64,000 nt of DNA from NCBI GenBank assembly GCA_029194535.1, contig JARFXR010000001.1, positions 2,426,721 through 2,490,720 on the forward strand. The letters are read 5' to 3'. Below are positions 9,565 to 55,563 of this stretch, piece after piece (within the stretch, counting starts at the first letter, position 1; every line of letters starts with the position of its first letter). The notes beneath the pieces are model-generated. The model did no database searches. It had not been told where the DNA came from and worked only from the letters and a program-made list of their open reading frames with translations. This DNA is from Nitrospira sp. (GTDB lineage Bacteria; Nitrospirota; Nitrospiria; Nitrospirales; Nitrospiraceae). The position numbers and the translations under genes are program-made.

Positions 9565-9656
9565 GTCATTCCCGCGGAAGCGGGAATCCAGCCACGGACT
9601 TCTCCCCAGCATATTGTCTGGATCGAGGACTGGATGCCCACTTTCGCGGACATGAA
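9565..9656. repeat. REP-like inverted pair
   Basis: Left arm 9565-9591 begins GTCATTCCCGCGGAAGCGGG and ends GAATCCAG; right arm 9630-9656 reads CTGGATGCCCACTTTCGCGG then ACATGAA. The arms are near-complementary and each is itself palindromic. A cleaner copy is nested in the element at 46934-47089. Confidence 0.75.
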
Positions 9657-39518: not shown

Positions 39519-42254
39519 CTATTTGGCCGTTTTGCCTGAAGCGAAGGCGCCACGCTTCCCCTCCTGGAGGAAAGTCTGAGGATCAAGCCTCCCATAGAGC
39601 TCGATCATCTTCGCCACCAGTCCGGTCCATCCTGTTTGATGACTGGCGCCCAGTCCCGCGCCATTGTCCCCGTGGAAATATTCGTAGAACAGAATGTGGT
39701 CCCGCCAGTGAGGATCGTCTTGAAATGTCTTGCTGCCTCCGTACACCGGACGTTTGCCCTGCGTATCGCGCAGAAATATGCGGGTCAGACGGTCGGCGAT
39801 GTCTTTGCTGACCTCGAACAGGTTCATCATCCGTCCGGACCCGGTCGGGCACTCGATCTTAAAGTTATCGCCGTAATAGAGATGGTAGGCCAACAGGGCT
39901 CGGATGATCATGGCATTCACCGGCATCCAGACCGGCCCGCGCCAGTTGGAGTTGCCCCCGAACATGCCGGTGTTCGACTCAGCCGGCAGATAGTCCACCC
40001 GGTACTCCTGCCCCGCGACGTGGAACACATAGGGATGCTGCTGGTGAAATTTTGAGAGCGACCGGATGCCGTAGGGACTCAGGAATTCATTCTCATCCAG
40101 CATCTTCGTGAGAATCCGGCGCAGGCGTTCCTGATTGACCAGCGCGAAGATCCCGCGATGGTTCACCCCCTGGTGGCCGGGACCGGTGAGGTGAATAGAG
40201 CGGAGAAGCTCCGGCATCTGCAGGATGCGCTCTTGAAATTGCGCCGCCGCCTCCGGAACCCTTGCGCGCTGCCATTCTTCGATCACCGACGTCGCGCAAA
40301 GCGGCAACAGCCCCACCATGGAACGCACCTTGAGTCTCGTGGCGCTCCCGTCCGGCAACCGCAACAGATCGTAATAAAACCCGTCTTCCTCGTCCCACAT
40401 GCCGTCTGATCCCGGCTTGTTCATCGCTGCAGCGATATAGAGAAAGTGCTCGACGAACTTGGGGACCATGTCGAGATACGTGCGATCGTGCGGGGCGATC
40501 TCGACGGCCAACTCCAGCATGTTCTGACTGAAGAGCGCCATCCAGGCCGTGCCGTCCGCTTGTTCCAGATGGCCGCCGGTGGGCAACGGAGCGCTCCGGT
40601 CGAACACGCCGATGTTGTCGAGCCCGAGAAATCCGCCCTCAAACACGTTCTTCCCGAAACGGTCCTTGCGATTCATCCACCAGGTGAAGTTCAGCAATAG
40701 CTTGTTGAACGCCGATTTGAGGAAATCGATATCATCTTCGCCTCGAAGCGCCAACTCCGCGCGGTGAAGGAACAGCGTCGCCCAGGCATGCACAGGAGGA
40801 TTGACGTCGCTGAAGTTCCATTCGTAGGCCGGGATTTGCCCGCTGGGGTGCTGATAGACACCCTTTAACATCAGTTCCATCTGCCGCTTGGCAAAGTCGG
40901 GGTCCACGATCGAGAGCGGCAACGTATGGAAGGCCAGATCCCATGCGGCATACCAGGGATACTCCCACTTGTCCGGCATCGAAATGATGTCGCGGTTGAT
41001 CATGTGAAACCATTCCCGATTGCGGAAGTCGCGACTCCCGCGATGCAGGGGATGCGCGCGATGCTCACCCAGCCATTGATCGGCGTCGAGAAAATAGTAC
41101 TGCTTGCTCCACAGCATGCCGGCAAGGGCTTGGCGCATCACGTTGGCTGCGTCCGGAGAAACGGAAGGAGGAGTCACCGCCTTATAGAACTCGTCGGCTT
41201 CCTTGACACGCTCGCTGAGAATGCCGTCGAACATCGCGCCGAACGGCGCGGGATCCTCCTTGGAACCGCCTTGTTTGACCAGTCGCAACTTCACGGTCGC
41301 CGACCGGTCGGGACCGATCGTGAACCGGTAATGAGGCGAGACTTTTGTGCCGATCCGGTCGGGATTGATGGCGTTCTGCTGACCATGCAGCACGTAATTG
41401 TTGATGCCGTCCTTCACATAAGGGCTCGCGTTCGGATACTCGGGAAAGAGCCGGTTGTTGTTCGTTTCGTTCTCCGTAAAGAGCAGCGGCACCTCGCCGT
41501 CGCAGTAGAGGATGTACTCCCCAAGCGCCGGATGCGAGGCCACCAGGGCGCTGGTGCCTTTCGGGCTCTTGACCTGCTTGAGCGCCGGCTTCTCGGCCGG
41601 CCTGGCCAGCCATTGAGCCCAGTCGTTGCGGAACCACAGGGTCGGCAAGAGGTGTAACTCGGCAGCCTCCGGTCCTCGGTTGACCGCCGTAACCTGGATC
41701 AGGATATCATCCGGGTCGGCCTTGGCATATTCGACGAACACGTCGAAGTAGCGGTTCTGGTCGAACACACCCGTATCCAGCAACTCATACTCCATCTCCT
41801 CACGGCTGCGCCGCTGATTCGTCGTCACAAGATCGGCATAGGGATAGGCCGCGTGGGGATACTTGTAGAGCAATTTCATATAGGAGTGCGTCGGCGTGCT
41901 GTCGAGATAGAAGTAGTACTCCTTGACGTCTTCGCCGTGGTTGGCCTCGCTGTTGGTCAAACCGAAGAGCCGTTCCTTGAGAATAGGATCCTTCCCGTTC
42001 CACAGGGCTAGGGCAAAACAGAGTCGCTGGCGCTCGTCGGACAGCCCGGCCAGCCCGTCCTCCCCCCAACGGTACGCGCGGGAGCGGGCATGATCGTGCG
42101 TGAAATAGTTCCAGGCGTCGCCGCCCTCGCTGTAGTCCTCCCGCACCGTTCCCCACTGGCGTTCGCTGAGGTACGGCCCCCAGCGCTTCCATGCGGAACC
42201 ATCCGCGCGCAATCGCTCATGCTCGGCGGTGACCTTCTTGTCTTCACCTTTCAT
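39519..42254 (-). CDS. MGH1-like / GH63-type glucosidase (copy 1)
   Basis: The start is MKGEDKKVTA after AGGAGAGG; the longer frame upstream is not supported. A 911-residue cytoplasmic protein (no signal peptide). It has the (alpha/alpha)6 glycosidase pattern of MGH1-like/GH63 enzymes: WKRWGPYLSERQWGTVREDYSEGG at the start, FHMINRDIISMPDKWEYPWYAAWDLAFH, and PVWMPVNAMIIRALLAYHLYYGD near the end. Such enzymes hydrolyse alpha-glucosides or mannosyl/glucosylglycerate-type solutes. Third in a run after phosphoketolase and PPK2. A paralogue is at 52638. Confidence 0.9.
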   Translation of the reverse strand: MKGEDKKVTAEHERLRADGSAWKRWGPYLSERQWGTVREDYSEGGDAWNYFTHDHARSRAYRWGEDGLAGLSDERQRLCFALALWNGKDPILKERLFGLTNSEANHGEDVKEYYFYLDSTPTHSYMKLLYKYPHAAYPYADLVTTNQRRSREEMEYELLDTGVFDQNRYFDVFVEYAKADPDDILIQVTAVNRGPEAAELHLLPTLWFRNDWAQWLARPAEKPALKQVKSPKGTSALVASHPALGEYILYCDGEVPLLFTENETNNNRLFPEYPNASPYVKDGINNYVLHGQQNAINPDRIGTKVSPHYRFTIGPDRSATVKLRLVKQGGSKEDPAPFGAMFDGILSERVKEADEFYKAVTPPSVSPDAANVMRQALAGMLWSKQYYFLDADQWLGEHRAHPLHRGSRDFRNREWFHMINRDIISMPDKWEYPWYAAWDLAFHTLPLSIVDPDFAKRQMELMLKGVYQHPSGQIPAYEWNFSDVNPPVHAWATLFLHRAELALRGEDDIDFLKSAFNKLLLNFTWWMNRKDRFGKNVFEGGFLGLDNIGVFDRSAPLPTGGHLEQADGTAWMALFSQNMLELAVEIAPHDRTYLDMVPKFVEHFLYIAAAMNKPGSDGMWDEEDGFYYDLLRLPDGSATRLKVRSMVGLLPLCATSVIEEWQRARVPEAAAQFQERILQMPELLRSIHLTGPGHQGVNHRGIFALVNQERLRRILTKMLDENEFLSPYGIRSLSKFHQQHPYVFHVAGQEYRVDYLPAESNTGMFGGNSNWRGPVWMPVNAMIIRALLAYHLYYGDNFKIECPTGSGRMMNLFEVSKDIADRLTRIFLRDTQGKRPVYGGSKTFQDDPHWRDHILFYEYFHGDNGAGLGASHQTGWTGLVAKMIELYGRLDPQTFLQEGKRGAFASGKTAK

Positions 42255-42283
42255 GGTCCTCTCCTGAGGCTGGTTCGGTGCGT

Positions 42284-43093
42284 TCAGTATTTTTGCGGTA
42301 TGAATCGCCGACCTTCCAATGACGCCTGATCGTCGTATTTGTGCTTTTTCAAGCGGCCCGGCAACCGGATCCTTTCTCGCGGCAGTTTCTTGTAGGGAAT
42401 CAGGCTCAGCAGGTGGCTGATGCAGTTGAGGCGGGCCCGCCGCTTGTCGTCCGATCGTACGATATACCACGGCGCATGCCTGGTGTCGGTTTTTTCCAGC
42501 ATCAGGTCGCGGGCGCGCGAATATTCGTACCACTTCTCACGAGAGGGGAGATCCATGGGACTCAGCTTCCACTGGCGCAACGGATCCTCGATGCGGGCCT
42601 CGAATCGCCGCTCTTGTTCATCGTTACTGACTTCCAGCCAGTACTTGACGAGCAGGATGCCTCCGTCCACGATATATCGTTCGACGATCGGACAGAGGTC
42701 GAGAAACCGGCGATGATCATCTTTGTTGCAAAATCCCATGACATACTCGACCCCGGCGCGATTGTACCAACTGCGGTCGAAAATGACGATCTCGCCCACG
42801 GCGGGGAAGTGTTGAATATAGCGCTGGAGGTACATCTGGCTTTTTTCCCGATCCGATGGGGCGGGCAGCGCGACGACCCGAAAGACCCGAGGGCTGACCC
42901 GCTCCGTCATGGCCCGGATCGTCCCTCCCTTGCCTGCTCCATCGCGTCCCTCAAACACGACGATGACGCGCAGGCCTTTGTGTTTGACCCAGGCCTGGAG
43001 ATGACAGAGCTCGGCCTGCAGCTTCCGCAGTTCCTCCTCATATTCCTTGCGTTTCAGCTTCGACCCTCCATCGTTGTGCTTCCGTTGCGCCAT
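42284..43093 (-). CDS. ppk2: Polyphosphate kinase 2
   Basis: A 269-residue, one-domain class. Walker A is EGRDGAGKGG (48-57), the catalytic loop FDRSWYNRAGVE (105-116), and the lid region has QERRFEARIEDPLRQWKLSPMD. A basic tail follows (LPRERIRLPGRLKKHKYDD). PPK2 moves phosphate between polyphosphate and nucleotides, usually to form ATP or GTP from the diphosphates. It sits 58 bp after phosphoketolase and 29 bp before the glucosidase, so it is probably cotranscribed with them. Confidence 0.95.
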   Translation of the reverse strand: MAQRKHNDGGSKLKRKEYEEELRKLQAELCHLQAWVKHKGLRVIVVFEGRDGAGKGGTIRAMTERVSPRVFRVVALPAPSDREKSQMYLQRYIQHFPAVGEIVIFDRSWYNRAGVEYVMGFCNKDDHRRFLDLCPIVERYIVDGGILLVKYWLEVSNDEQERRFEARIEDPLRQWKLSPMDLPSREKWYEYSRARDLMLEKTDTRHAPWYIVRSDDKRRARLNCISHLLSLIPYKKLPRERIRLPGRLKKHKYDDQASLEGRRFIPQKY

Positions 43094-43151: not shown

Positions 43152-45560
43152 TCACACGTTGTCCGCCTCCGTTGAACCGCCGCGCCGTTTCGACGGAGCG
43201 CCATGCCCCCATCGCCACCCCGTAATCTCGGGCATGTCTTCACCGTATTTCGCGATGTATTGCTTGTGCTCGATCAACTTGTCGCGAACCGCCTGCTTGG
43301 CATAGGCGGCCCTCGACCCCAACTGCGGCAAACGGTCGATCACGTCGGCGAAGAGATGAAACCGATCCAGATCATTCATCACCACCATGTCGAACGGGGT
43401 GCTCGTCGTCCCTTCTTCCTTGTAGCCTCGGACATGCAGGTTGTCATGATTGGTCCGCCGGTACGTGAGGCGGTGGATCAGCCACGGGTAGCCGTGGAAC
43501 GCGAAAATGATCGGCTTGTCCTTTGTAAACAGCGCGTCGAAATCCCGGTCGGACAGACCGTGGGGGTGCTCGCTGGGCGGTTGCAGCTTCATTAAATCGA
43601 CGATGTTGATGACACGGATTTTCAGCGCGGGCAGATGCCGGCGCAGCAGATCCACGGCGGCCAATGTTTCCAGCGTCGGCACATCGCCGCAGCAGGCCAT
43701 CACGACGTCCGGCTCCGTCCCGTTGTCGCTGCTGGCCCATTCCCAGATGCCGATCCCGGCCGTGCAATGTTTGATGGCCTCGTCCATCGACAGCCACTGA
43801 GGCGCCGGCTGCTTGCCGGCCACGACGACATTCACATAGTTGCGGCTGCGCAGGCAGTGATTCGTGACCGACAGCAGCGTGTTGGCGTCGGGAGGCAGAT
43901 AGACCCGCACGACTTCCGCTTTCTTGTTCACGACATGGTCGATGAATCCCGGGTCCTGGTGGCTGAAGCCGTTGTGATCCTGCCTCCAGACATGGGAGCT
44001 GAGCAGATAATTGAGCGAGGCGATGGGACGCCTCCAGGGAATGTGGTTGCAGACTTTCAGCCACTTGGCGTGTTGATTGAACATGGAATCGACGATGTGA
44101 ATGAACGCCTCGTAGCATGAGAAGAAGCCGTGGCGTCCTGTCAGCAGATACCCTTCCAGCCACCCCTGGCACTGGTGCTCGCTGAGCATCTCCATCACCC
44201 GACCGTCCGGCGCCAGATGGTCGTCGAAGGGGAAGCGCTCCGCCACCCAGGCGCGGTTGGTGACCTCCAGCACATCCTGCCAACGATTCGAATTGTTCTC
44301 GTCCGGGCTGAAGAGACGGAAATTTCCGGTCTCCCGGTTCAGGCTCATGGTGTCGCGGAGAAACTGTCCCATCACGCGGGTCGATTCAGCGGTGATGGCT
44401 CCGGGGGTTTTCACGGGAATCGCATAGTCACGGAAATCGGGCAGACGCAGCTCCCGGAGCAGGAGTCCTCCGTTGGCGTGCGGATTGGCGCTCATCCGAC
44501 GCTCGCCTTTCGGAGCCAGTTCGGCCAGATCCGGATTGAGCCTGCCGTGCTTATCGAACAACTGCTCCGGGTGATAGGACTTCATCCAAGTTTCGAGGAT
44601 CTTCACGTGCCCGGGCTTGTCATGCATTTCACCCATCGGCACCTGATGCGAGCGCCAGTAGTCCTCGGTTCGCTTCCCGTCGATCGATTTCGGGCAGGTC
44701 CATCCCTTGGGCGAACGCAGTATGATCATCGGCCAGCGCGGCCGTTCCTTCACGCCACTCTTCCGCGCCCGGATCTGGATCCGACGAATGTCGTCAAGGC
44801 ACCGGTCTACCGCGGCAGCCATGAGCCGGTGCATGTCGGCAGGTTTATGGCCCTCGACGAAGTACGGCGTATATCCGTAGCCTCGGAACAGCTGGTCCAG
44901 TTCTTCGTGACTGATGCGGGCCAGCACGCAGGGATTGGCGATCTTGTAGCCGTTCAGATGAAGGATCGGCAACACGGCTCCGTCGGAGGCAGGGTTGAGG
45001 AATTTATTGGAATGCCAAGACGTCGCCATCGGTCCCGTTTCCGCTTCTCCGTCACCGACGACACAGGCCACGATCAGATCCGGATTGTCAAAGGCGGCTC
45101 CGTACGCGTGCGACACCGCGTAGCCCAACTCCCCGCCTTCATGGATCGACCCGGGCGTCTCCGGCGCCACATGGCTTGGGATGCCTCCTGGAAACGAAAA
45201 TTGCTTGAACAGCCGCTTCAGACCCTCCTCATCACGTGAAATGCCGGGATAGACCTCGCTGTAGGTTCCTTCGAGATAGGCGTTGGCCACGAGCCCGGGG
45301 CCGCCGTGCCCCGGCCCCGTGACATAGATCATGCTCAGATCTCGTTGTCTGATGACTCGATTCAAATGGACATAGATAAAATTCAGACCGGGCGTCGTGC
45401 CCCAATGTCCCAACAAACGAGGCTTGATATGCTCTTTCTTCAAGGGCTTCTTGAGCAGGGGATTGTCATAGAGATAGATTTGCCCAACCGAAAGGTAATT
45501 CGCGGCGCGCCAATAGGCGTCCATCACTTTGAGTTCCTTCTCAGACAACGATTTCTGCAT
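43152..45560 (-). CDS. xfp: Xylulose-5-phosphate/fructose-6-phosphate phosphoketolase
   Basis: The start is at [10 protein letters not shown], 6 nt after AAGGAG; the 85 codons open upstream are not coding. 802 residues, the normal family length. ThDP-site features include [29 protein letters not shown] and [20 protein letters not shown]; the C-terminal part has [18 protein letters not shown]. It cleaves xylulose-5-P or fructose-6-P with phosphate to acetyl-P plus glyceraldehyde-3-P or erythrose-4-P. First of a run with ppk2 and the glucosidase. Confidence 0.97.
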
Positions 45561-46030
45561 GAATGACTCCTTCTGGCTTTGTCGGGGTCGGTAGAACAAG
45601 GTTGCGTCTGCGTTCCGAGTCAGCAGCGTCGTCGGCCGGCACCCGAGTCGCGCACTCACCACTGATGTCGCCGTGAGTCTACTCCGCATCCAATCCGCTT
45701 GAGAATTGAGGCCGCCTCGTCCACTTCGATCTCGGCAACGAACCCGCTCTCGCAGTGTTCCTGTATTGTCCATAATCCCAGGGACGAAGACAACCGCAAG
45801 ACCGCCACCCGTCATTCCTCTACTGAGGGGAACGAAGCTAATTCTGCACGACAGTGCGTTGTAGAGATTTCCGCCCTAGCGGAGGCCGCAAGAGTCCCAT
45901 CTTGCCTCAATGCATGTTCCTGCCTCTGCAGCCTAAACCCCCTCGCCTTGATGCGTCCTGATTCTCGGTGCTAAAGTCGCACTTCTCATCGGTGACAAGC
46001 GGGCGTTGTCATATTTGATGAGGGAGGAGC
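45561..46030. other. 470-bp divergent intergenic region
   Basis: It separates phosphoketolase (minus) from the lone atpG (plus). No gene is seen. A TGACAA...TTGTCA inverted repeat lies just before atpG (45993-46011). Confidence 0.55.
45993..46011. promoter_or_regulatory. Inverted repeat TGACAA-N7-TTGTCA before atpG
   Basis: A perfect 6-bp inverted repeat with a 7-nt spacer, 20 bp upstream of the atpG ATG. It could be an operator. Its arms and spacing differ from the CTGTCA-N4-TGACAG family. Confidence 0.35.
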
Positions 46031-46927
46031 ATGCCCAGTCTTCAATCGGTCCGGCGGAAAATCGATTCCGTCAAGAAAACCCAGAAGATTACGAAAGCCA
46101 TGAAAATGGTCGCGGCGGCGAAACTCAAGCGCACGCAGGACCGTATTCTCGCTGCCAGGCCGTACGCGCTCACGATGCGGGATGCAATTCGCGCGCTCAG
46201 CCGGCGCGTGAATCGGGACGCGCATCCTTTGCTCAAGAAGCGGGAAGGTCACCGGATCGAGGTGGCCGTCGTCACGAGCGACCGGGGGTTGTGCGGCGCG
46301 TTTAACGCGAACATCTTGCGAACGGCCGCTACCGCCTTGAAGGAATTCGAGTCCGCCGGCGCCAAGGTCCAGGTCGTCGTCATCGGCAGGAAGGGACGCG
46401 ATTTTTTCAGGAGACGCGGTTGGACGGTGCGTCGAGAGATCGTGGACATCTTCGACAAGCTCTCGTTCGAGCACGGGATGTTGTTGGGCAACGAACTCCA
46501 GGCCCTTGAGAATTACGCGATGGACCGCGTCGACGCGGTCTATGCGATTTACAACGAGTTCAAGTCGGCCATCCAACAGCGCGTCGTCGTGGAGCGGCTG
46601 CTTCCGCTCGACTGGGTCGTGGAGATCTCGAACCTCAAGGAAGCGGACTCCGGTACCGACGGACTCCCCGGAGGCTACTTGTATGAACCGAGCGAAGATG
46701 AGCTGCTGGAACAGCTGCTGCACCGGAATTTTCACGTCCAGGCCTACCGCATCCTCTTGGAGTCGTCGGCCGCCGAACAAGGAGCCCGCATGACGGCCAT
46801 GGACGGCGCCACAAGGAACGCCGGAGAACTGATCAAGAAATTGACGATCTACTACAACAAGACCAGGCAGGCGGCCATCACCAAAGAACTGATGGACATC
46901 GTCGGCGGCGCCGAAGCCTTGAAATAA
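46031..46927 (+). CDS. atpG: ATP synthase F1 gamma subunit, solitary gene
   Basis: A full-length 298-residue gamma subunit. The N-terminal helix SVRRKIDSVKKTQKITKAMKMVAAAKL and the C-terminal helix MTAMDGATRNAGELIKKLTIYYNKTRQAAITKEL, which make the rotor shaft, are both intact, as is VVTSDRGLCGAFNANI. The ribosome site GGGAGGAGC is strong. No other ATP synthase gene is nearby: upstream are 470 bp of non-coding DNA, downstream a MITE. It is either the genome's only gamma gene placed apart, or a second copy. Confidence 0.95.
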   Translation: MPSLQSVRRKIDSVKKTQKITKAMKMVAAAKLKRTQDRILAARPYALTMRDAIRALSRRVNRDAHPLLKKREGHRIEVAVVTSDRGLCGAFNANILRTAATALKEFESAGAKVQVVVIGRKGRDFFRRRGWTVRREIVDIFDKLSFEHGMLLGNELQALENYAMDRVDAVYAIYNEFKSAIQQRVVVERLLPLDWVVEISNLKEADSGTDGLPGGYLYEPSEDELLEQLLHRNFHVQAYRILLESSAAEQGARMTAMDGATRNAGELIKKLTIYYNKTRQAAITKELMDIVGGAEALK

Positions 46928-46933
46928 TAATGA

Positions 46934-47089
46934 CTAGAACCTGTCTCACATTTCATTCATGATGGGATGGAATCTGTGGTCGTCATTCCCGCGCAGGCGG
47001 GAATCCAGTCTTTTCAGGTCATTCTGGATGCCCGCTTTCGCGGGCATGACCAGTTCTGACCGGAACACCCATTGTGAGATAGGTTCTAG
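46934..47089. mobile_element. 156-bp MITE with nested REP pair
   Basis: Terminal inverted repeats CTAGAACCTGTCTCACA (46934-46950) and TGTGAGATAGGTTCTAG (47073-47089) match at 16 of 17 positions. Inside are inverted arms GTCATTCCCGCGCAGGCGGG (46982-) and CCCGCTTTCGCGGGCATGAC (-47050). No coding capacity. The right end overlaps the stop codon of the adjacent barrel gene. Confidence 0.82.
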
Positions 47090-48069
47090 AACGTTTTGAA
47101 CATGTACCGGATTCCCACCTCGATGTTCCAGACATAGGCGCCGGGTAAATCACGGCCCCAGATTCCGACGCCCGGCCGCACGTAGGCCCCCAGTGTCCCG
47201 ACTAAATTCCTGCCGCCCTCGAATTCCATCGTCATGCTGCTCTTCGCGTTCTGCACAAAATTGACTTGCACCACGGCATTGACAACGGTCCACCACTTCC
47301 TTGCCCAGAATGAATTCACCTGGACGGTGGTGCTGAAGAGCGACACGTCGCTTCGCGATGGGTCTCCGCCGACCGCGGCCTGATATTGCACTAAGCCGAT
47401 CAGAAACGAGTCCCATTGTGGAACAAACCGGGCCGTGGCAAGGGCCGGACCGACCGTATATTTTCCCAGGCCCAATCCCGGCTCTGCGGCAGTCGGTAAC
47501 GTCGTCAGCACGCCGACGAGTACGGCATATTCAGGCGTATTGTAGGCCCGCCAGGCTGCCGTGACGCTGAGATCGCTCAGGCCTCGCAGATTGGTGGCTC
47601 CGGGACGATTGGGATCGACCGTCTTGAGAAACGGCATATCGAACCGGAGCAGGTAGTTCCCTCGAAACGGGAGATCGACGCGTGCGACCGTCGCGGTGGC
47701 ATTCGCGCTTTGAGGCAGATCGAGATATTGACTGGATAGCTGGACCCGGCCGACGATGGCGGTGGGGTCGGTTCCGTACTTGGCGCCCAGTCTCCGGAGT
47801 CGTTCGGCCTCGGCCTCCTGTTCAGTCGTCAATCCTTGCGGGCCGAGACGCTTGAGGATGCGACGTTTTCGTTTCGGAGCCTCGCCCGGGGGAGATGTGC
47901 CGGTCTCCGGCTCCATCTCCGTCTCGACCTCTTCCTCCACTTCGGTCGAGGGCGCCGGCTCGCTCTCGGCGACAGCTTCGGCAGCCGCGACCTCACCCAT
48001 TGCAGGATAGCCGCTCGCAAGCGCAACCAACAGGAGCGCTAGAGCCGCAGCGGTTCCTCTTTGCTCCAC
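47086..48069 (-). CDS. Outer-membrane barrel with acidic linker (MetA/phenol-type)
   Basis: A 327-residue protein from a GTG. The signal (ALALLLVALASGYPAMG) is followed by a strongly acidic stretch (VEEEVETEMEPETG), a basic patch (KRKRRILKRL) and a short helical segment, then a barrel of about 230 residues: VGRVQLSSQYLDLPQS, LRFDMPFLKTV, YAVLVGVLTTLPTAAEPGLGLGKYTVGPALA. It ends VGIRYMFKTF. The pattern resembles the Phenol_MetA_deg barrel family. The TAG stop lies inside a MITE terminal repeat. Confidence 0.8.
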   Translation of the reverse strand: MEQRGTAAALALLLVALASGYPAMGEVAAAEAVAESEPAPSTEVEEEVETEMEPETGTSPPGEAPKRKRRILKRLGPQGLTTEQEAEAERLRRLGAKYGTDPTAIVGRVQLSSQYLDLPQSANATATVARVDLPFRGNYLLRFDMPFLKTVDPNRPGATNLRGLSDLSVTAAWRAYNTPEYAVLVGVLTTLPTAAEPGLGLGKYTVGPALATARFVPQWDSFLIGLVQYQAAVGGDPSRSDVSLFSTTVQVNSFWARKWWTVVNAVVQVNFVQNAKSSMTMEFEGGRNLVGTLGAYVRPGVGIWGRDLPGAYVWNIEVGIRYMFKTF

Positions 48070-51122: not shown

Positions 51123-52595
51123 TCAGAACGTCAGCACGTGGAACTTCCACGCGTTCAGATCGACATAGAGCCCGCTTTTGCTCAGCTGGTCGCCGTGACG
51201 GTCGAACACGTCGCCGCTGACGACATCTTTGAGCTTCCACGAACGACCCGCGAGATCGTTCCACGGCAGCAAGACATCTCCCTGCGCGGCTGCGGGAGAG
51301 AGATTCACCACGATCAAATGCCGCAGGTCGCCTTTGCGCCAGCACCAGGCCAGAAGGTTCATGAAGCTCTGGTTGTCCGGCCACCCTCGGCGCTCGCACA
51401 AGGACCACTCCCCGTTTCTCAGATCGTCCGCGCGCAGCAACCGTACGAGCGCCTGATAGAAGCGCTGCAGCCGCTGGTCGGTCGGTTCATCCGGCCTGCG
51501 GCGGAGAAATACCGGAAGTCTCACCCTGCGCCCCTCGAACTGCCCTTCGTGAAACAGCCTGGCTCCCGGCAAGCAGGCCGCCGTCAGGGCAGCGGCCTCC
51601 ACCTTGCCCGTCTCGAACGCCGCCGAAGCCCGCGGTTCGTCATGGTTTTCGACGAAGCGGACGAGTCGCTCCTGATAGGCCGGATCGGCGCAGAGATGCA
51701 ACCGCACCGTCTCGGCCGCGTTGTGTTCCAGCCGATCGTAGAGTCGCTTGTCGTAGCAGTAATCGAACCCCTGCTGTTGCAGGTCCCACTCCAGATCCCA
51801 GTAGGCCTCGGCGATGAACAACACCTGGGGATGACGCTTTCGGACCGCCGCGATCAGCTCCGGCCAATACTCGGTTGCCGGCCTGGCGCCGGCCCGCGCC
51901 CCCCACGTCCGCTCGAAGATGGGATTCATCAGGAGCATGGCCATGTCGCAGCGCATGCCGTCGCATTGATCGGCAATCGAGTTGACCGTATCGACCGCCG
52001 CCTTGCGCAATCCGGCATCAAAGGCGTTCAACTGCAGCACGTCGGACCAAGCGGGAAAATAGGGATCGCGTCCGCAGGCCAGGACCTTGCCCTCCAGCCG
52101 CACGAACGCATCCGGCTGCCTGGCCGCGTCGTCGTCGGTTCCTTGAATGAAGTACTCGGGATGCTCGTTCACCCATGGATGATCCGGCGCCACATGATTC
52201 GGCACGAAATCCAAGATCAGCCGAAGCCCGCGGGCGGCCAGTTTCTTTCTCGCGGCGGCCAATCCTTCCGGGCCTCCCAGTTGGGCGTCCACGACGTAGC
52301 GGCGCACGCAATAGGGCGATCCCACGTTGTCCTCGGGAGAAAAATCAGGCAGGGCCCTGCGAAAATCCGCCAACTGCCCGGCGTTCTTCATGGAGATCGC
52401 GATACCGCCCGGGCTGCGTTCCCACACGCCCATGAACCAGACCGCATCGAACCCGTAGGCGCCGAGGCCGTCCCATTCCGCGTCAGGGACGGTGGCAAGC
52501 GTGACGGGCTTGCCGTGCTTTCGACTCAGCTCGTAGAGCCACACCCAGGTGTTGATCTCATAGATCACCGGTCGTCTCGGCCAGCCTGTCTTCAT
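51123..52595 (-). CDS. GH13 alpha-amylase-family enzyme
   Basis: A 490-residue TIM-barrel glycosidase with the four GH13 regions: I DFVPNHV (129-135), II GMRCDMAML with nucleophile Asp217, III IAEAYWD with acid/base Glu263, IV FVENHDEPR with Asp319. A C-terminal beta domain follows (HLIVVNLSPAAAQGDVLLPW). No signal peptide, so cytoplasmic. The exact substrate (glycogen, trehalose-type or other alpha-glucan) cannot be read from sequence. It starts 42 bp after GH63-type copy 2, and AAAGGAGACGACG precedes its ATG. Confidence 0.93.
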   Translation of the reverse strand: MKTGWPRRPVIYEINTWVWLYELSRKHGKPVTLATVPDAEWDGLGAYGFDAVWFMGVWERSPGGIAISMKNAGQLADFRRALPDFSPEDNVGSPYCVRRYVVDAQLGGPEGLAAARKKLAARGLRLILDFVPNHVAPDHPWVNEHPEYFIQGTDDDAARQPDAFVRLEGKVLACGRDPYFPAWSDVLQLNAFDAGLRKAAVDTVNSIADQCDGMRCDMAMLLMNPIFERTWGARAGARPATEYWPELIAAVRKRHPQVLFIAEAYWDLEWDLQQQGFDYCYDKRLYDRLEHNAAETVRLHLCADPAYQERLVRFVENHDEPRASAAFETGKVEAAALTAACLPGARLFHEGQFEGRRVRLPVFLRRRPDEPTDQRLQRFYQALVRLLRADDLRNGEWSLCERRGWPDNQSFMNLLAWCWRKGDLRHLIVVNLSPAAAQGDVLLPWNDLAGRSWKLKDVVSGDVFDRHGDQLSKSGLYVDLNAWKFHVLTF

Positions 52596-52637: not shown

Positions 52638-55472
52638 TCATGTCTTCGGACCGGTCTTTTTTCGACCTTGGGCCAACCCGGCGACGCGGCTCGAGGTGCC
52701 GAGCTTACCTTGTTCGAGGACGTCCTCGGCCTTGACCTCTCCGTAGATTTGGAGCAGACGTCCGATGAGGCCGGTCCAGCCGGTTTGATGGCTCGCCCCG
52801 AGGCCTGCGCCGTTGTCTCCGTGAAAGTATTCGTAAAAGAGGAGGCAATCCCGCCAGTGCGGGTCGTTCTGAAATTTCTCGACCCCGCCGAACACGGCCC
52901 TGCGCCCTTCCTTGTCTCGGACGAAGATCCGGCTCAACCGCCTGGTAATCTCTTGCGCCACTTCGAAGAGCGTCATCCGACGGCCCGATCCGGCGGGACA
53001 CTCCACGGTGAACTCATTACCGTAGTACCCGTAGAGGTTCAGCAGGGCTCTGATGATCAACACGTTGACGGGCATCCAGACGGGCCCGCGCCAATTGGAG
53101 TTGCCGCCGAACATGCCGCTGTCCGATTCGGCGGGCAAATAGTTCACCCGATACTCTTCACCGTGCACCGTGAACACATACGGATGATCGCGGTGGTATT
53201 GCGAGAGAGAGCGGATCCCGAACGGGCTCAGAAATTCATTCTCGTCGAGCATCTTCTCCAGCACGCGCCGCAGCTTCGGTTCGTCCAGAATCGAGAGAAT
53301 CCGGCGATTCTTGACGCCGGGCTTGTTCGGCGGAGCGATGGTGGCCATCAGCTCGGGATGCCGCCGGAGAAATTGTCTCGCCCGTTCGAGGAGGTCCGGA
53401 AACTTTGCTTCCACGTCCATGTCGAAGACGGTCGACGCGCAGAGCGGCAGCAACCCGACCATCGACCGGACTTTCAGCCTGGTCGCCCGGCCGTCGGGAA
53501 GCCTGAGCAAGTCGTAGAAAAACCCGTCTTCTTCATCCCACATTTCATCGCGATGCTCGCCGATGCGATCCATCGCGGCGGCGATCCACAGAAAATGCTG
53601 CAGGAACTTGAGCGCCATTTCCTCATAGATCGGATCGTGCGCCGCCAGCTCGAGCGCGATGTCCAGCATGTTTTGGGAGAACAGCGCCATCCAGGCCGTG
53701 CCGTCCGCCTGCTCGAGCGAGCCGCCCGTGGGCAGCGGCGCGCTCCGATCGAAGACACCGATGTTGTCCAACCCCAGAAAGCCTCCTTCGAACACGTTCC
53801 GCCCGCCGGGATCCTTCCGGTTCACCCACCAGGTGAAGTTCAGAACCAGCTTCTGAAACCCGTTCTTCAAGAACTGCAGATCTCCCTGTCCGCTGATCTG
53901 CTTGTCGGCCTGGTAGACGAACCAGGTGGCCCAGGCATGCACCGGAGGATTGACGTCTCCGAAGTTCCACTCGTAGGCGGGAACCTGTCCGTTGGGGTGG
54001 ATGTACAGGTCGTGGAGCATCAAGTCCAGTTGCTGCTTGGCGAAATCGGCGTCCACGGCCGTCAGGGCCACGCAGTGGAACGCCAGATCCCAGGCCGCGT
54101 ACCAAGGATATTCCCATTTGTCCGGCATGGAGATGACATCGTCGTTGAGCATGTGAAACCATTGCCGATTACGCAGATTCGGCGCCTTCGCCGGCATCAA
54201 CGGATCCACCCCGTGTTCTTCCAACCACTTGTCCAGATCGAAGTAGTAATACTGTTTGGTCCACAACAAACCCGCCAGGGATTGCCGCATCACCAGGGCC
54301 TCTTCCCGGCTCAGTTTTCCCGGAGTAATGGCGGCATAGAACTGATCCGCCTCAGTGAGACGCTCGCTCACGACCTTGTCGAAGCGGACCAGGAAGGACT
54401 TGGCGGCGGCGGCATTGTCCTGCGGCGCCGCGTGCGAAAGCCGCAAGCGAATCACCGTCGTCTCTCCGCCGGGAACGTCGATCCGGTAGGCGGCGGCGAC
54501 CTTGGTGCCGGTCCGATAGGGATTGACGGCCGCCTGCTGGCCGCCCACGAGATAGTCGTTGATGCCGTCTTTCACATAGGGACCGGCGTTCGACTTGTTG
54601 AACAGCCGCTGCATGTTCGTTTCGTTTTCCGTGAACAGCAGCGGGACGTCGCCCTCGCAGGTGAGATAGCGTTTGCCCAATTCTTCGTGCGCGGCCATGG
54701 CAATGGTCAGGCCTTTGGAGCCGGTCAGCTGCTCGATGCTCGGTTTCGCGGCGCCCTTCGACCAGGACCAGGTGTTGCGGAACCACAATGTCGGCAGTAC
54801 GTGCAGCGGCGCCGCCTCCGGGCCCCGGTTGCTGACGCTGATCTTGATCAGGATGTCGTCGGGGGTTTCCTTGGCGTATTCGACGAACACGTCGAAGTAC
54901 CGGTCTTCGTCGAACACGCCGGTATCGATCAGCTCGTATTCCATCTCCTGCCGTCCTCGCCGGCGGTTGGTGTCGACCAGCGCGTCGTACGGATAGGCGG
55001 CCTGCGGGTATTTGTAGAGATATTTCATGTAGGAATGCGTCGGTGTGCTGTCCAGATAGAAATAGTACTCCTTCACATCCTCGCCGTGGTTGCCTTCGCT
55101 GTTGGTCAGGCCGAACAGACGCTCCTTCAGGATCGGATCACGGCCGTTCCAGAGCGCCAAGGCGAAACAGAGCCGTTGCTTGTCGTCGGAGATTCCGGCC
55201 AGCCCGTCCTCTCCCCAACGGTAGGCGCGCGACCGTGACTGGTCGTGCGTAAAATAGTCCCAGGCGTTGCCGGATTCGCTGTAATCCTCCCGCACCGTGC
55301 CCCACTGCCGCTCGCTCAGGTAGGGCCCCCACTTTTTCCAGGCCAGCTTATGCGTCCGCGCCGCTTCGAGCCGCTCATGCTCGTGTGTCAGGGCGCCTCG
55401 ATCCGCCGTCTGCGAGACGGTCTTTTTCTCGACGGTTTTCTTCTCACTTCCCCGCGATTTGCTCCCGCTCAT
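52638..55472 (-). CDS. MGH1-like / GH63-type glucosidase (copy 2)
   Basis: A 944-residue paralogue of the enzyme at 39519 with the same blocks: WKKWGPYLSERQWGTVREDYSESG, FHMLNDDVISMPDKWEYPWYAAWDLAFH, NWRGPVWMPVNVLIIRALLNLYG. The N-terminus adds a Lys/Ser-rich stretch. The start is MSGSKSRGSE; an ATG pair a few codons upstream is possible. No signal peptide, cytoplasmic. It likely shares the alpha-glucoside substrate type of copy 1. Part of a minus-strand run with GH13 downstream and the dehydrogenase relic upstream. Confidence 0.9.
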   Translation of the reverse strand: MSGSKSRGSEKKTVEKKTVSQTADRGALTHEHERLEAARTHKLAWKKWGPYLSERQWGTVREDYSESGNAWDYFTHDQSRSRAYRWGEDGLAGISDDKQRLCFALALWNGRDPILKERLFGLTNSEGNHGEDVKEYYFYLDSTPTHSYMKYLYKYPQAAYPYDALVDTNRRRGRQEMEYELIDTGVFDEDRYFDVFVEYAKETPDDILIKISVSNRGPEAAPLHVLPTLWFRNTWSWSKGAAKPSIEQLTGSKGLTIAMAAHEELGKRYLTCEGDVPLLFTENETNMQRLFNKSNAGPYVKDGINDYLVGGQQAAVNPYRTGTKVAAAYRIDVPGGETTVIRLRLSHAAPQDNAAAAKSFLVRFDKVVSERLTEADQFYAAITPGKLSREEALVMRQSLAGLLWTKQYYYFDLDKWLEEHGVDPLMPAKAPNLRNRQWFHMLNDDVISMPDKWEYPWYAAWDLAFHCVALTAVDADFAKQQLDLMLHDLYIHPNGQVPAYEWNFGDVNPPVHAWATWFVYQADKQISGQGDLQFLKNGFQKLVLNFTWWVNRKDPGGRNVFEGGFLGLDNIGVFDRSAPLPTGGSLEQADGTAWMALFSQNMLDIALELAAHDPIYEEMALKFLQHFLWIAAAMDRIGEHRDEMWDEEDGFFYDLLRLPDGRATRLKVRSMVGLLPLCASTVFDMDVEAKFPDLLERARQFLRRHPELMATIAPPNKPGVKNRRILSILDEPKLRRVLEKMLDENEFLSPFGIRSLSQYHRDHPYVFTVHGEEYRVNYLPAESDSGMFGGNSNWRGPVWMPVNVLIIRALLNLYGYYGNEFTVECPAGSGRRMTLFEVAQEITRRLSRIFVRDKEGRRAVFGGVEKFQNDPHWRDCLLFYEYFHGDNGAGLGASHQTGWTGLIGRLLQIYGEVKAEDVLEQGKLGTSSRVAGLAQGRKKTGPKT

Positions 55473-55563
55473 GCTCCGATTCTCCTCCCTCATCATCGGT
55501 CGCCGTCTCCCGCTCCTCCGACGCATTCTGCGTCGATTCAAGCCGACGACCGGAATTCACGCG

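Follow-up and report, generated by a model that had tools for sequence, protein, structure and literature searches.

A second F1 gamma-subunit gene outside the ATP synthase cluster of Nitrospira, probably a working replacement for the operon gene

The window, by which we mean the whole 64,000-nucleotide stretch of Nitrospira DNA analysed here, is part of contig C1 of genome G000 (99.9% complete, 5 contigs), and it carries at 46031-46927 on the forward strand a gene, atpG2, whose 298-aa product is referred to below as gamma2. An earlier note on this DNA had described a complete F1 gamma-subunit gene with both rotor helices intact and a ribosome site in front of it, and all three points are borne out. 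In profile searches, gamma2 matches TIGR01146 (ATPsyn_F1gamma, NCBIfam) at 319.3 bits, where the curated cut-off is 194.45, and covers the full PF00231 model (Pfam) at 325.7 bits, where the cut-off is 39.9. In the AlphaFold2 model (mean pLDDT 84.9), long helices span residues 4-59 and 222-297, with the N- and C-terminal helices packed antiparallel around a Rossmann-like body, and a putative ribosome-binding site, GGGAGGAG, can be read at 46022-46029 (+), one base 5' of the atpG2 ATG. A structure search found that the solved gamma chain 3oaa_G resembles the model (TM 0.81/0.85) and that the ten best solved chains have TM scores of 0.81-0.86 to the gamma2 query. In an alignment of 38 rows, the near-invariant N- and C-terminal rotor segments are retained in gamma2, and a 2-residue insertion near residues 156-158 is unique to the gamma2 clade. 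Residues 196-215 form a poorly predicted loop (pLDDT <50); the gamma2 loop is a few residues longer than that of the operon gammas, and its length overlaps that of some of them (G014, G131).

Two special kinds of gamma subunit were considered for this protein and rejected. A photosynthetic gamma with a redox-type regulatory insert does not fit, as Cys88 is the single cysteine of gamma2 and there is no cysteine pair, and the gamma of the N-type (alternate) F-ATPase, TIGR03323, is matched at 110.7 bits, where the cut-off is 282.35; ATPase genes adjoining the gamma gene, as in an N-type operon, are not found here. The suggestion in the earlier note that a second gamma could alter coupling or regulation is therefore without direct support, given that the redox cysteine pair is lacking and the longer loop is not unique.

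The gene stands alone between a spacer of about 470 bp and a MITE-like element, as the earlier note had it, and no alpha, beta or other ATPase gene was found among the neighbours read in the window (NCBIfam and Pfam searches). Upstream and on the opposite strand lies a phosphoketolase gene (xfp, 43152-45560, with XFP_N, XFP and XFP_C domains and an NCBIfam match), whose listed open reading frame extends to 45815; the NCBIfam match starts only at residue 80 of this long frame, which places the start of xfp near 45560 and gives the spacer its length. The divergence of the two genes had also been pointed out, and it is an arrangement kept in most gamma2 genomes. The polyphosphate kinase 2 gene (PPK2, 42284-43093 (-), TIGR03707, 357.7 bits) is indeed close by in the window, as claimed, with a link to gamma2 that is conserved in only some of the gamma2 genomes. 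No acetate kinase gene (ackA) was seen beside the xfp and PPK2 genes of the window. Downstream, the MITE-like element (46934-47089, no strand assigned) has 17-nt inverted ends that are 94% complementary and a terminator-like hairpin inside at 46985-47004; its palindromic core, TCATTCCCGCG..GGGAATCCAG, occurs at 9566-9591 of the window as well as at 46983-47049. It is followed by a gene at 47086-48069 (-), whose product has no family match in NCBIfam or Pfam and has homologues near atpG2 in G001, G106, G107 and G108 (66-71% identity) and, at 35%, a weak homologue close to the gamma gene in G151. The region is flanked by two homologous glycoside-hydrolase-like proteins (MGH1-like/GH63) at 39519-42383 (-) and 52638-55541 (-), which together with an alpha-amylase-like gene at 51123-52595 and xfp make up a carbohydrate region. 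An Rfam search of 45400-47100 gave no match at gathering scores.

Within the spacer, a promoter-like element, TTGATG-N15-TGN-TAAAGT, is located at 45948-45977 (+), its end lying 54 bases before the atpG2 ATG. The form TTGAY-N16-TGNTANNNT has one match in the 64-kb window, where 0.04 are expected, and a pattern search with TTGAY-N-N14/15-TGN-TANNNT found the element upstream of 10/10 gamma2 genes. In a control with the gamma2 genes set apart, it was found at 0/260 other ORF starts, with 7 gamma2 matches; in an earlier control, which counted the gamma2 genes in, 5/133 ORF starts matched. The pattern was drawn from the alignment of gamma2 upstream regions, after that alignment had been inspected, so its exclusiveness may reflect shared descent as opposed to function. 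A sigma-70 scan with a strict consensus found no promoter, and we treat the element as a putative one.

A search of the complete genome for further atpG genes and for the atp operon, proposed in the earlier note, found both on contig C2, where the F1 cluster is intact (delta-alpha-gamma-beta-epsilon) and contains an operon gamma gene at C2:1073540-1074406, whose product is 62% identical to gamma2. The earlier note had left two options, a split F1 operon or a second gamma subunit, and for G000 it is the second that stands; the split operon is rejected here because the cluster on C2 is complete. Misassembly of the atpG2 locus, named there as a way in which the observation could fail, is unlikely and was rejected, as counterparts with 94% and 77% identity are present in the one-contig genomes G001 and G003 of the same genus. 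The sole other alpha/beta-like pair in G000 is part of a V/A-type ATPase that has I, C and D subunits of its own (the alpha/beta search also returned a fifth, weak match of 100 bits), which leaves gamma2 the single F-type alpha/beta pair to work with. This V/A-type ATPase is encoded on C1 (L019:4576-12775, with subunits I, C, A, B and D matched) and is a minority trait, given as 4.8% of Nitrospirales genomes in the excerpted text of a recent comparison (PMC12342949).

Among 175 genomes of the family, matches to gamma2 at E <=1e-128 were found in nine, of which that in G014 (70%) is a normal operon gamma. The remaining eight comprise G000, G001, G003 and G004 (genus g1), G106, G107 and G108 (g15) and G148 (g17), with 77-94% identity to the window gene among the seven relatives. 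To these we add G005, where the contig ends within gamma2 (85% identity over 183 aa), and G151, which carries a mosaic gamma described below, giving the ten gamma2 genomes referred to throughout. In a gamma tree built from 68 of 121 distinct gammas, the eight gamma2 sequences form a single clade (support 100/100), whose long stem, 0.67 changes per site, branches off close to the family's base; for this reason, gamma2 looks like an old second gamma and not a recent duplicate of the local operon gene. A 44-aa gamma2-like scrap with the signature KIDSVKK is found in G083 (L310:7641-7772), inside an otherwise non-gamma 169-aa ORF, and gamma2 may once have been present, and then lost, in this lineage too. 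The AmoA family PF02461 has no match in any of the seven genomes of genus g1, which are thus probably nitrite oxidisers, and is matched in G106, G107, G108 and G148, which are thus probably comammox.

The F1 clusters of the relatives were followed by searching alpha and beta genes in 33 genomes and reading through 14 clusters, seven of which (G006, G072, G106, G107, G108, G148 and G151) lack a gamma gene between atpA and atpD; the 14 were picked for suspected loss or as comparisons, so that 7/14 is not a rate. For these seven, then, the split operon of the earlier note holds. The gap between atpA and atpD is 113-227 bp in the gamma-less clusters, as opposed to 926-1213 bp in six intact ones, and in several cases it still holds scraps of the old gene, which are C-terminal in G006 (score 150), G072 (121) and G106 (115) and N-terminal in G148 (79). 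None of 500 single-base shuffles did as well for any of these four clear scraps (shuffle maximum 41-43). A fifth, in G151, is doubtful (score 43, equalled by 2/500 shuffles), and no gamma scrap was found in the atpA-atpD gap of G107 or G108. The three C-terminal scraps all start at the same codon and may therefore stem from one deletion, spread by descent or exchange; the N-terminal scrap of G148 needs a separate deletion, which makes at least two losses likely. In five of these genomes (G106, G107, G108, G148 and G151), the island gamma, whether gamma2 or mosaic, is the sole complete F-type gamma found, a statement that is weaker for G108, which is 78% complete; G107 has in addition a distant gamma at C14 (98 bits to PF00231). 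No gamma2 was found in G006 (85% complete) or in G072, where the island contig stops within ackA before reaching the position expected for gamma2.

A different kind of damage is seen in G118, an AmoA genome and the source of the remaining one of the 14 clusters, where the operon gamma (L219:4976-5855) has two frame breaks and is altered in the most conserved N-terminal residues, and where neither another complete F-type gamma nor gamma2 was found in the assembly. This genome fits displacement only if its assembly misses gamma2; otherwise the broken gamma is unexplained. G060 was likewise considered as a case of a decaying operon gamma and was dropped, as the break is a run of N.

The mosaic gamma of G151 lies in an island that is nearly the same as that of G148 (xfp 96%, aldolase region 95%, ackA pieces 83%), and the two island gammas are only 61% identical. 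Its first 30 codons are gamma2-like, its middle resembles the gammas of genus g5 and its last 60 codons lean towards gamma2. At 97 informative sites, the ratio of gamma2-like to g5-like residues is 16:4 in the ends and 26:39 in the middle, the rest being neither (Fisher p 0.002, with segment borders chosen after the profile had been inspected), and the signal of the ends comes mostly from the first 30 codons (11:1, as opposed to 5:3 in the last 60). In quick trees built from 60 of the 68 gammas, G151 groups with the eight gamma2 sequences when the ends are used (SH-aLRT 97) and with g5 when the middle is used (SH-aLRT 99), a conflict suggesting that the island gamma of G151 probably recombined while keeping at least its gamma2-like start. 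A fully independent second transplant, as a whole-length tree would read, was dropped on the same grounds.

Both gammas show signs of constraint. For pairs with finite dS, dN/dS is 0.03-0.10 among gamma2 genes and 0.03-0.07 among operon gammas, values indicating that both are constrained and that neither is relaxed overall, although synonymous sites are near-saturated in many pairs; judged by these ratios, gamma2 is under purifying selection. Between G000 and G001, gamma2 is 93.6% identical (dN 0.036, dN/dS 0.044) and the operon gamma 89.7% identical (dN 0.064, dN/dS 0.073), with a nearly equal synonymous difference for the two genes. A conserved-site test, for which 40 of the 121 distinct gammas were used (operon gammas from the Nitrospira-like crown), ranked G000 and G001 first and second of the 40 for departures at otherwise invariant sites (9/215 and 6/214), where alpha and beta depart at 3/400 and 2/411 sites in G000 and at 0/400 and 0/410 in G001. 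Set against alpha and beta together, the excess in gamma gives Fisher p values of 5e-4 for G000 and 8e-5 for G001, with 0.04 as the next of the 40; these two related genomes have three changes in common and are not independent. In the gamma2 carriers G003 and G004, the excess is weak and falls short of significance (p 0.11 for each). From this pattern of substitutions, the operon copy in G000 seems to be losing constraint.

The setting of gamma2 has been kept across most of its carriers, where the gene is divergent to an xfp/ackA block in nine of the ten genomes, at a distance of 0.2-1.85 kb; the exception is G003, in which gamma2 adjoins PPK2 without xfp. The surrounding island contains a varying selection of genes for glycogen phosphorylase, debranching enzyme, phosphoglucose isomerase, class-I aldolase, phosphoketolase and acetate kinase. 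An aldolase gene lies between gamma2 and ackA in G005, G148 and G151, and in G001 an ORF between gamma2 and xfp resembles, by eye, the phosphofructokinase of G013. The island acetate kinase of G148 (L069:2713-3932) consists of two overlapping pieces in different frames, which read as either a frame break or an assembly error. The link between gamma2 and phosphoketolase is kept in most gamma2 genomes, and phosphoketolase itself is far commoner (137/175 genomes); no gamma gene was found within the 15 and 17 kb read near the islands of G013 and G131. Gamma2 thus joined an island able to exist without it. Fermentation has been proposed for a comammox Nitrospira in the portion available of one study (PMC7078480), and a link between the site of gamma2 and glycogen fermentation is possible.

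Taken as a whole, the comparison makes it quite probable that gamma2 is a working rotor gene that replaces the operon gamma and is encoded outside the F1 cluster beside the island. Under this explanation, gamma2 would be expressed from its own promoter as the rotor subunit of the one F-type ATP synthase in the cell and would be able to substitute for the operon gamma in alpha3-beta3; we infer that it assembles into F1Fo. Rotation within alpha3-beta3 and coupling to the c-ring would have indirect support from the five genomes where gamma2, or its mosaic, is the sole complete F-type gamma found. G000 would represent a stage in which both gammas are present and the operon copy, losing constraint, is presumably on its way out, and several relatives would represent one with the operon gene deleted and no gamma found besides gamma2. 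Against this explanation, G000 retains a complete operon gamma, the dN/dS values of the operon gammas show no overall relaxation, and gamma2 was not found in G006, G072 or G118. A possible, if doubtful, alternative is that gamma2 is a redundant passenger on a mobile sugar-metabolism island, that the operon losses were neutral accidents and that the site near xfp is meaningless; this departs from the best explanation solely in denying meaning to the site. The patchy occurrence over three genera, the evidence of recombination at the locus in the G151 mosaic and the transposon-like element adjoining gamma2 would all suit a passenger, whereas the promoter-like element and divergent arrangement kept across genera, and a gamma2 at least as constrained as the operon gamma between G000 and G001, would not. 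The idea of an isoform switch, where cells under anoxia or starvation would produce gamma2 along with the glycogen-fermentation island, altering coupling or inhibition, for example towards ATP-driven proton pumping, draws on the same divergent placement beside xfp/ackA, on the enzymes that the island encodes, on the long stem and clade-specific insertion of gamma2, and on the second gamma with a separate role reported in the available part of a study of Arabidopsis (PMC5522872). We consider it unlikely, as ordinary respiration must also depend on gamma2 where gamma2 is the sole gamma, and neither the loop length nor the cysteine content sets gamma2 apart. Similarly unlikely is an exchangeable shaft, in which an island-encoded gamma would be swapped in when the nitrifier gives up respiration for fermentation, so that the synthase would run as an ATP-driven proton pump; this isoform would later have become the sole gamma in some comammox lineages.

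That gamma2 serves another complex, such as a V/A-type ATPase or some other partner, is highly improbable even though such an ATPase is present in G000: a separate D subunit is encoded in the V/A cluster, a PF00006 search showed no V/A A and B genes in G001 and G004, which both carry gamma2, the rotor ends of gamma2 are almost unchanged, and five genomes have the gamma2 or mosaic gene as their sole complete F-type gamma found. An assembly artefact is scarcely credible; several of the relatives are fragmented assemblies, some at least of them MAGs, but gamma2 recurs in the one-contig G001 and G003, and gamma-less clusters occur in seven assemblies, four of them with clear gamma scraps.

The gamma gene is part of one of the most conserved bacterial operons, and cyanobacteria have a separate gamma gene, atpC. 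Split ATP synthase clusters have been described in Rhodospirillum rubrum, with separate F1 and Fo gene clusters (PMC5709465), and in N. moscoviensis, where F1 and Fo are likewise in separate clusters (PMC6606698), as far as the excerpts of both papers go. Like the cyanobacterial case, these resemble the present one in that the genes are spread over more than one locus; the difference is that gamma alone has left F1 here, replaced by a divergent second copy, with scraps of the old gene staying behind. In Arabidopsis, the paralogous gammas ATPC1 and ATPC2 likewise serve a single kind of F1, and the second is not used in photosynthesis, but that system is eukaryotic and redox-regulated, and the accessible extract does not mention that the first gene was ever lost (PMC5522872). 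As a protein, gamma2 agrees with the F1 gamma AtpG family in its above-cut-off, full-length match, its fold and its near-invariant rotor ends, and differs in lying outside atpA-atpD as a second copy with two clade-specific residues. Some Nitrospiraceae have extra, more distant gammas, such as that of G107 on C14 and that of G052 (26% identity to gamma2), which we infer to be N-type, probably so for G107; gamma2 differs from the N-type gamma in its score below the cut-off and in having no adjoining alpha or beta gene. A Nitrospirales comparison from 2025 covers F-, N- and V/A-type ATPases, and its excerpted text does not mention a displaced gamma (PMC12342949); no report of one in Nitrospira was found in the literature searched, which consisted of open-licence papers without their supplements.

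If gamma2 has indeed taken the place of the operon gamma, the stages of such a displacement would be visible within one family, from both copies, through a loosening operon copy, to scraps only and to complete erasure. The family would also offer a natural test of how gamma parts fit a foreign alpha3-beta3, helped by the G151 mosaic with its gamma2-like start and different middle. Annotation by operon position would label such genomes as gamma-less, and a fermentation island would be linked to the make-up of the ATP synthase in bacteria that are probably nitrite oxidisers or comammox.
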